Below, piece after piece: positions 53,839 to 55,269 of a DNA stretch of 64,000 nucleotides; position 1 is the stretch's first letter, and each line of letters begins with the position of its first letter. The notes below the pieces were generated by a model. That model worked only from the letters and a program-made list of their open reading frames with translations, ran no database searches and was not told the DNA's origin. The position numbers and the translations under genes were made by a program. Source of the stretch: Haloferax sulfurifontis ATCC BAA-897 (GTDB lineage Archaea > Halobacteriota > Halobacteria > Halobacteriales > Haloferacaceae); NCBI RefSeq assembly GCF_000337835.1, contig NZ_AOLM01000018.1, forward strand, positions 124,001 through 188,000, written 5' to 3'.

Positions 53839-53863
53839 TCAGGAGCACTCAGAGAGATGGTAG

Positions 53864-54886
53864 TTACTGTTGAGAGTTGGTTTCGACTTGCGACTCCAGC
53901 CGTTTGAACATACCAAATGAGTTGAGTGCCGGTGCAGGTGCACCTGAGACGGTCCGCGAGCCGGCGGTTACAAGTTCGTGCACATTGATAGCCGTGGTTT
54001 CGGTGTCGACGTCTGCTTTGCTGAACACCCCGGCGAGGGCACCTGCGACGACAGGTGCCGCGTAACTGCTACCTTCGTACAGTTCAACGTCGCTGATATC
54101 AGCCGTATCGCGAGGGCTAGGCATGTGTGCGGGCGCAAGAATATCGGGCTTTCCATCAAGCGGCCGTGTGTTATCTGGCCACTCGCGCAGTGTCTTACTC
54201 CGTACGCACGAGGGCGAATCATCACAACCGTGATGGCCGCAAAAACTCCGCTCCCTCGCGTCGCCCTCGAAACAGTACGGTCCTTCGTCCATCGTATTAT
54301 CAACCGGTGACGGGACGACTGGACACAGCGCCTCAAAACCACCGACTGCGACCGCTTCCTCAGCAAGGGCGGGGCTAAACACGTACTGTTTCGGGCCCTC
54401 ATCGACCTCTCGATTTCCCGCAGCAGTAACGACGATTACGTCGTTTTCGACGGCGTACTTGACCGGGGGATGCTGTGGAGAGCATTCCACCGGAATCTCG
54501 TTTGGTGCACCCCACGAGAGGTTGAGAATATCGACACCATCGTCAACGGCCTGATGGATTGCCCGGGTGAACGAATCCGTCGGGAGGCGCTTGTCGGAGT
54601 CCATCGCCTGATAGAAGCTGAAGGTTGCCTGTGGCGCAACGGCACTCAGCAGTTCAAAGATGGCGACACCGTGGATGTGAGTGACGTCGTCGTCCACCTC
54701 TAAGAAATTTCTTCGATGTTCGATGTAAGCCGACCGAGCGAATGCGGCTGGAGGAGATTTGCACGAATCGACGATTCCGATGTGAACACCGTCTCCAGAG
54801 CAATCGACCGGGCTGTGGTCGACACTCTCACAGACGGCGTGAAAGATGCGTTCTCGAAATGCCCGAACATTATCGTACCCCGACAC
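53864..54886 (-). CDS. Cytoplasmic subtilisin-like serine protease (S8), GTG start
   Basis: The 340-residue product has no signal peptide and no N-terminal prodomain. The catalytic triad reads Asp40 in 'VHIGIVDSCKS', His72 in 'HGVAIFELLSAVAP' and Ser274 in 'EGSSYAAPVVAGALAG', with oxyanion Asn158 in 'VVTAAGNRE'. All three motifs deviate from the textbook forms. An insert at about residues 188-227 carries five cysteines and two adjacent His. Base composition is lower in GC than in neighbours. The upstream gene, two bases away, looks like a separate propeptide. Confidence 0.88.
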   Translation of the reverse strand: MSGYDNVRAFRERIFHAVCESVDHSPVDCSGDGVHIGIVDSCKSPPAAFARSAYIEHRRNFLEVDDDVTHIHGVAIFELLSAVAPQATFSFYQAMDSDKRLPTDSFTRAIHQAVDDGVDILNLSWGAPNEIPVECSPQHPPVKYAVENDVIVVTAAGNREVDEGPKQYVFSPALAEEAVAVGGFEALCPVVPSPVDNTMDEGPYCFEGDARERSFCGHHGCDDSPSCVRSKTLREWPDNTRPLDGKPDILAPAHMPSPRDTADISDVELYEGSSYAAPVVAGALAGVFSKADVDTETTAINVHELVTAGSRTVSGAPAPALNSFGMFKRLESQVETNSQQ

Positions 54887-54888
54887 AG

Positions 54889-55152
54889 TTAGGCGAGGGC
54901 ACGTGCTTCCCGGTCGGGAGAGACCGACAGGATATAGTCGGGACGAACGAGCGCAGGGAGGTTCTCAACTGTAACCGTAGCCACGACGACGTCACCGGGG
55001 AGTTCAGAAGAGACCTCGTCGCCGAGTTCTTCAATAGCTCTGGAGACATCTTCGGCCCGATTGTCCTCGCAAACGAAGACCAGATCCACGGTCTTCGAAC
55101 TGTCGAAGCCCTCAATCATCGCTTCGACTTTCGGATGAATCTGTTGGGCCAT
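54889..55152 (-). CDS. Inhibitor-I9/prodomain-like small protein paired with the subtilase
   Basis: The 87-residue product has the predicted order strand ('TVDLVFVCEDN'), helix ('AEDVSRAIEELG'), strands ('GDVVVATVTVENL'), helix, then strand 'YILSVSPDREARALA'. This is the ferredoxin-like order of subtilisin propeptides (inhibitor I9). In a normal pro-subtilase this domain is fused ahead of the protease; here it is a separate gene in the same order. It is likely a folding partner and inhibitor (inference). Its TATA box is at 55178-55185. Confidence 0.7.
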   Translation of the reverse strand: MAQQIHPKVEAMIEGFDSSKTVDLVFVCEDNRAEDVSRAIEELGDEVSSELPGDVVVATVTVENLPALVRPDYILSVSPDREARALA

Positions 55153-55177
55153 TGCTCAGCCGTGAATAGGCGCATGC

Positions 55178-55185
55178 AATATATC
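55178..55185 (-). promoter_or_regulatory. TATA box of the I9-subtilase operon
   Basis: GATATATT, read on the reverse strand, lies 26-33 nt before the I9-like ATG. The subtilase has no separate box, so both genes are transcribed together. Confidence 0.6.
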
Positions 55186-55256
55186 AATCCACCGGAAAAA
55201 TGAGTTTCGGGCGGTTCTGATTTGAACGAAGTGTACTAGCCAGACCACCCGACAGA

Positions 55257-55268
55257 GACCGAACGGTC
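55257..55268 (-). terminator. Small hairpin after the NifU-like gene
   Basis: GACCG (55257-55261) and CGGTC (55264-55268) form a tight 5-bp stem just beyond the NifU-like stop. It is a weak terminator candidate. Confidence 0.3.
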
Positions 55269-55269
55269 G

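Follow-up and report, generated by a model that had tools for sequence, protein, structure and literature searches.

An 87-residue gene of Haloferax sulfurifontis ATCC BAA-897 lies immediately ahead of a subtilase gene whose product begins close to its catalytic domain. The locus raises the question whether the small gene encodes the prodomain of the protease, and how prodomain and protease come to be read as separate genes. The locus was examined within the window (the whole stretch of 64,000 nucleotides analysed here) and alongside homologous loci of other haloarchaea. The window pair is quite probably a two-gene pro-subtilase, a derived form of a family that is joined by -1 frameshifting at G_GGA_AAC. 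The initial annotation described a split pro-subtilase; it did not include the frameshift site that appears to join the two open reading frames in most of the family, with one start codon for both.

The gene pair and its predicted products

Table 1. Features of the module and its site, by position in the window
Feature	Position	Strand	Description and basis
I9-like small gene, 87 aa, ATG start	54889..55152	minus	Predicted stand-alone subtilase prodomain/inhibitor; AF2 model, Foldseek, homologue upstream of protease in 23/23 loci
S8 subtilase, 340 aa, GTG start	53864..54886	minus	PF00082, E 2.4e-22; alignment of 17 relatives; residue positions
Junction ..GCC TAA ct GTG..	54884..54894	minus	Protease GTG 2 nt past inhibitor stop; slippery heptamer absent
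TATA-like element ATTGATATATT (attgatatatt)	55177..55187	minus	About 30 nt upstream of ATG of small gene; by eye
Variable intergenic site	53839..55269	unstranded	Between DUF402 gene (ends 53838) and NifU-domain gene (ends 55270); holds the module

The order on the minus strand is the 87-aa open reading frame, two bases between TAA and GTG, and the 340-aa open reading frame, as initially described. A single promoter common to the pair is plausible because only 2 nt separate the genes. The GC content of both genes is 0.57 (0.571 overall). Their GC3 is 0.59–0.62, compared with 0.83–0.90 in the flanking NifU-domain and DUF402 genes, and the lower GC noted earlier is thus confirmed.

The 340-aa sequence belongs to Peptidase_S8, with 80 bits against a curated cut-off of 21.8. 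Alignment of 17 relatives places the triad at Asp40/His72/Ser274 and the oxyanion Asn at position 158; the oxyanion Asn is replaced by His in the protease of locus L010. No signal peptide is seen by eye. Only about 35 residues precede the catalytic Asp region, therefore the protease has no prodomain, and both absences agree with the initial annotation. Intracellular subtilisins (ISP) carry a short N-terminal LIPY/F pro-segment in place of I9, and no such motif is found by eye at the N-terminus of the window protease. The nearest PDB sequence relatives include intracellular subtilisins as well as a CylA-type processing protease. Four Cys residues (188, 216, 221 and 227 in window numbering; C196, C221, C226 and C232 in L013) are invariant in 17/17 aligned proteases and perhaps form a metal site that classical subtilisins lack. 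The proteases of the frameshift group carry a second CxxxC pair. The AlphaFold model of the window protease has a pLDDT of 36 and was set aside.

The small protein displays an I9-type prodomain fold in its predicted structure. An AlphaFold model built with a six-row alignment (pLDDT 80) shows a single predicted domain with strands at 21–28, 46–51, 55–61 and 74–79 and helices at 33–42 and 62–69, in the order beta-alpha-beta-beta-alpha-beta. In a Foldseek comparison of this model with 350,542 PDB chains, subtilase prodomains rank top. The leaders are 3afg (ProN-Tk-SP, TMq 0.77), 4i0w (CspB), 1spb_P (subtilisin BPN' prosegment), 1r6v (fervidolysin) and 8c4x (PAM protease), with pro-subtilisin E, EpiP and PCSK9 further down. 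The best E-value is modest, 1.6e-3; the I9 call therefore rests on the agreement among matches and on gene context. The I9-type fold proposed from the sequence is in this way borne out by the model, as is a prodomain encoded apart from its protease, and a model-based check for absence of an I9-like fold gave the I9-like fold instead.

Sequence searches do not detect this relationship. No I9 match is given by Pfam and NCBIfam searches with the window protein, and 0/21 members of the small family match Pfam Inhibitor_I9 at E 1. The small-family profile yields chance matches only against PDB sequences. Because there is no Inhibitor_I9 sequence match, the small protein is filed as I9-like and not as a Pfam member.

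The last 12 residues, SVSPDREARALA, are identical in the small proteins of the window and L007, which are 53% identical overall. Such identity would be expected if the tail were inserted into the active site of the protease, a hint only that the C-terminal tail could act as a product-like inhibitor of the cognate protease.

Distribution, genomic context and possible roles

The small gene is present in 5 of the 391 genomes of the class, the window's own included, and is always directly upstream of a homologous protease. The more conserved protease is found in 19 of the 391 (about 5% of sampled haloarchaea). Further family and plasmid searches, added to the class-wide search, gave 23 haloarchaeal loci, and in all 23 an I9-like open reading frame is situated directly upstream of the protease, so that a failure of the two genes to co-occur, which would have told against the initial annotation, was not seen. 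The two proteins diverge together: distances among the small proteins and among the proteases show a strong correlation across 17 loci (Mantel r 0.83; 0/5000 permutations as high). For pairs outside the window clade where dS could be estimated, dN/dS is 0.12–0.27 for both proteins (0.12–0.18 for the protease), which at the level of sequence establishes purifying selection on both proteins in the relatives. Compared with G113, the closest relative, the small gene of the window gives a dN/dS of 0.42 (YN00), at sites too diverged for a firm figure, and the comparison yields no estimate for the protease.

The module is rare and patchy even within genera. It is missing from another genome of the window's own species, and some copies are on plasmids. 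Eight congeners (L088–L095, one of the same species) have 96–943 bp at the DUF402–NifU spot instead of the module, and this segment contains nothing, a HAD-type hydrolase or an alpha/beta hydrolase (classes assigned by eye). The patchiness, variable site, low GC and plasmid copies support the accessory, horizontally distributed character proposed for the pair. However, the description of the module as mobile is not supported as stated, since no mobility genes or terminal repeats were seen around it; some genomes have it at a variable site and others do not. No relatives were found in IMG/VR, and a phage collection gave no close relatives, only distant Lactococcus phage proteases.

The protease is disrupted in 5 of the 23 copies, and the small open reading frame is intact every time. 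Loci L020 and L025 have frameshifts, G137 and G247 are interrupted by about 1.4 and 7.6 kb, and L100 has an internal deletion. That all five disruptions fall in the protease is unremarkable because of target size alone.

Two roles compete. Ordinary regulated intracellular proteolysis, for stress or for processing of a specific regulator and with no toxin or defence role, is a serious contender, short of an even chance. The purifying selection fits such a role, as do the intracellular subtilisins and the CylA-type processing protease among the closest PDB sequence relatives. However, housekeeping proteolysis would not be expected to be this rare and patchy within genera, and no neighbour is conserved across the family that could be a candidate dedicated substrate.

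A protease toxin-antitoxin or abortive defence system, in which a labile I9 antitoxin is lost or displaced, for instance on viral shut-off of host translation, and the freed protease kills or arrests the cell, is possible and somewhat unlikely. Features of a type II toxin-antitoxin layout are present, namely a small partner gene in first position, a short-spaced bicistron and a patchy distribution (19/391 genomes, with absence from a genome of the same species). A toxin-like or other accessory function, in stress or defence, would be consistent with the module's rarity, its low GC, its plasmid copies and the repeated inactivation of the protease next to an intact small open reading frame. In Halomicrobium katesii (L055:5500-14100), a frameshift-type module within a type I restriction locus is flanked by the R gene on one side and the S and M genes on the other, and in G259 the module is beside a type IIG/DrmMI-like gene. 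On the other hand, a survey of 92 neighbours in 18 neighbourhoods traced restriction genes in only these 2/18, the rest being mostly ordinary genes, as are the window's own neighbours. Pfam recognised no HTH or RHH DNA-binding family among the small-protein members, so that the DNA-binding domain of a type II antitoxin was not found, and the disruptions count for little given the size of the protease target. The toxin-antitoxin-like or defensive role assigned in the initial annotation is thus unsupported as stated, and a defence-island context is not general.

Two other arrangements were observed. In the subgroup L018, L020 and L025, a third conserved gene of 105–110 aa is found directly downstream of the protease (L051:9789-10106, L057:1901-2233, L059:9251-9583). 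The family has no Pfam match and is possibly a third component. In G455 (L063:2548-3743), from another family of the same phylum, a signal-less subtilase and an apparent N-terminal prodomain share one open reading frame, followed by an overlapping small open reading frame of about 63 aa with a weak DUF2129 match. The small-family profile gives no significant match to the N-terminal region of the G455 subtilase. This locus may be a separate protease-inhibitor arrangement.

The junction between the two reading frames

The protease and I9 open reading frames overlap in 15 of the 23 loci, with the protease in the -1 frame relative to I9, and G_GGA_AAC is present in every one of these overlaps. In all 15, the heptamer has the phase ..NNG GGA AAC.. 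in the 0 frame and ..GGG AAA C.. in the -1 frame. In 11 of these loci, the open -1 frame showed no ATG, GTG or TTG upstream of the catalytic Asp; the remaining four (L013, L019, L020, L042) show only a late or isolated start codon, and L020 is a broken copy. Automatic detection of the Asp stopped early in L025, which is counted among the 11, and its frame was read by eye; the first NTG in the -1 frame is a GTG just before the catalytic Asp.

Stop codons bound the site on both sides. Locus L024 has a -1-frame stop 3 nt before the heptamer, and L018, L019, L020 and L025, which include the subgroup with the third gene, have a 0-frame stop immediately past it. The shift is therefore pinned to the heptamer. 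Codon variation across nine ungapped relatives changes frame at this point as well: variation peaks at the third codon position of the 0 frame upstream of the heptamer (mean pairwise difference 0.51–0.65) and at that of the -1 frame downstream (0.50–0.61). All seven heptamer bases are invariant in these nine relatives. From the codon frequencies of these genes, a Gly-Asn pair is expected as GGA AAC with a preceding G about 4% of the time. The distance from the heptamer to the catalytic Asp is 44 residues in nearly all frameshift loci.

Two loci have other junctions. The divergent locus L023 displays C_CCA_AAT, and L022 has no heptamer and an ATG 20 nt after the stop. Transcriptional slippage at GGGAAAC was considered and is unlikely, as the sequence has no long homopolymer run. 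Downstream of the heptamer no conserved RNA stimulator structure was found (RNAalifold -6.6 versus -3.1 +/- 2.0 for shuffled sequences, with 6.5% of shuffles as good). Some individual frameshift loci fold well downstream (z down to -3.2), and an SD-like GGAGG is found in some only.

Strong comparative evidence, all of it from sequence, points to a conserved programmed -1 frameshift in the relatives that would produce free I9 protein and a little fused I9-protease. Most ribosomes would terminate and release free inhibitor, and a minority would go on to make the fusion.

The predicted join also bears on the identity of the small protein. Another regulator of ferredoxin-like fold could merely precede the protease without being a prodomain, and it would account for the lack of an I9 match by HMM, ferredoxin-like folds being common. 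This is improbable, since subtilase prodomains outrank nearly all other ferredoxin-like PDB chains in the Foldseek comparison and the small protein is invariably adjacent to the protease and, in most relatives, predicted to be joined to its N-terminus.

Public gene tables treat these loci differently. The table for pHTUR02 lists only the small open reading frame and leaves the protease out, and the Halomontanus table places the protease start 90 nt after the heptamer. Such tables are known to omit pseudogenes. It is very unlikely that the protease of the relatives starts internally at a non-canonical codon, or that the open reading frames are pseudogenes or assembly errors, as the omitted or late-starting table entries and the five copies truly broken downstream might suggest, because the same heptamer and the same -1 relation recur in 15 loci of many genera, -1-frame conservation begins at the heptamer at a nearly constant distance from the catalytic Asp, and the protease dN/dS is low.

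None of the frameshift features is present at the window junction, which has no slippery heptamer and a separate GTG start. Six loci are split in this way (window, L007, L008, L010, L011 and L099); all lack the heptamer, and the protease GTG is at +2, +4, +5, +4, -4 and -4 nt, respectively, from the inhibitor stop. A possible relic of the heptamer in this clade, GGGAAG, was rejected because it sits in a different codon phase. The six loci form one clade with a support of 100/100, and the frameshift form is found on other branches of the tree. In the simplest reading, the split form is the derived state and arose by one change from frameshift to split. This reading rests on parsimony because the root of the tree is uncertain, the outgroup being long.

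Spacings of this order permit termination-reinitiation in Haloferax, whereas a gap of about 20 nt does not, and pairs of genes so closely spaced show an 8.1-fold enrichment for subunits of heteromeric complexes (PMC10666635). The window protease is probably translated by termination-reinitiation. One short mRNA would give the free I9-type prodomain of 87 aa and the intracellular S8 protease, with the protease made chiefly by ribosomes coming directly from the inhibitor gene. With the GTG only 2 nt past the inhibitor stop, such coupling would hold the inhibitor to a ratio of at least 1:1. Most likely, the nascent protease is bound in trans by the I9 protein, which aids its folding and would then sit in the active site pending degradation or displacement of the I9 protein. 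The pair thus most likely functions as an intracellular protease accompanied by an equimolar or greater amount of I9 protein, which folds and inhibits it. In both the split and the frameshift forms, no ribosome would make the protease without first translating the inhibitor, and the window clade appears to be an alternative evolutionary route to the same inhibitor:protease stoichiometry.

Comparison with known systems

The I9-subtilase is itself already known, and the pair is new as a variant of it. Fused Inhibitor_I9 subtilase precursors (ProN-Tk-SP, 3afg; BPN' prosegment, 1spb_P; pro-subtilisin E, 3whi) share the predicted prodomain fold, its N-terminal position and the S8 domain. Unlike these precursors, the prodomain here is separate (window) or frameshift-joined (relatives), there is no signal peptide, and four family-specific Cys residues are invariant. 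Stand-alone I9 inhibitors also exist, namely the yeast proteinase B inhibitor and Pleurotus POIA1. As with these, a free I9-type protein is proposed here to inhibit an intracellular subtilase in trans. To our knowledge, however, the yeast and Pleurotus inhibitors are not encoded in adjacent overlapping or coupled genes with their proteases and are not made by failure to frameshift.

The window protease gives weak PADLOC matches (subtilase 4.2e-6, IetS 0.026). IetAS and other subtilase-bearing defence systems in PADLOC also contain an intracellular subtilase, but the partner here is an I9-like protein, and no IetA AAA ATPase is found beside the subtilase in the window.

Among the papers searched, none relevant to frameshifted subtilases was found. 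In haloarchaeal viruses, the same type of heptamer is used in tail-chaperone genes: the shift site of halovirus HCTV-1 is G_GGA_AAC (PMC5009743), that proposed for Hardycor1 is G_GGA_AAT, and G_GGA_AAT/AAG have been proposed in other haloarchaeal viral genes (PMC7911831). Those are viral structural genes, whereas the gene here is a cellular protease. Among cellular genes, fucA1 of Saccharolobus solfataricus is read by -1 frameshifting at A_AAA_AAT, and a 2021 review of archaeal recoding lists it as the one reported -1 case in a cellular gene and asks whether others exist (PMC8211752). The magnesium chelatase of methanogens is a further suggested archaeal -1 case.

The present family would, with high confidence, be an archaeal cellular family with a -1 frameshift at G_GGA_AAC that is translated either into an inhibitor or into the protease fused to that inhibitor, the ribosome setting the ratio, and from which the window clade has moved to a termination-reinitiation pair; it may serve as a protease guard that is released when host translation is disturbed. 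In such a gene every initiation yields inhibitor and only a slip yields protease. Joining by frameshift is rare in archaea; here it would supply surplus inhibitor as a matter of course and thereby curb a dangerous enzyme. As the protease is omitted or shortened in the plasmid gene tables examined, dual-output genes of this kind may be commoner than thought.

The family thus resembles fucA1 as a cellular archaeal gene read by -1 frameshifting, and differs from it in gene and heptamer. The fucA1 frame is interrupted only in some Sulfolobales strains, whereas the heptamer here is conserved in many genera of haloarchaea and unshifted reading gives a protein that is probably functional in its own right. 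If the strong comparative evidence for the family holds, this would be a second case of -1 frameshifting in archaeal cellular genes after fucA1.
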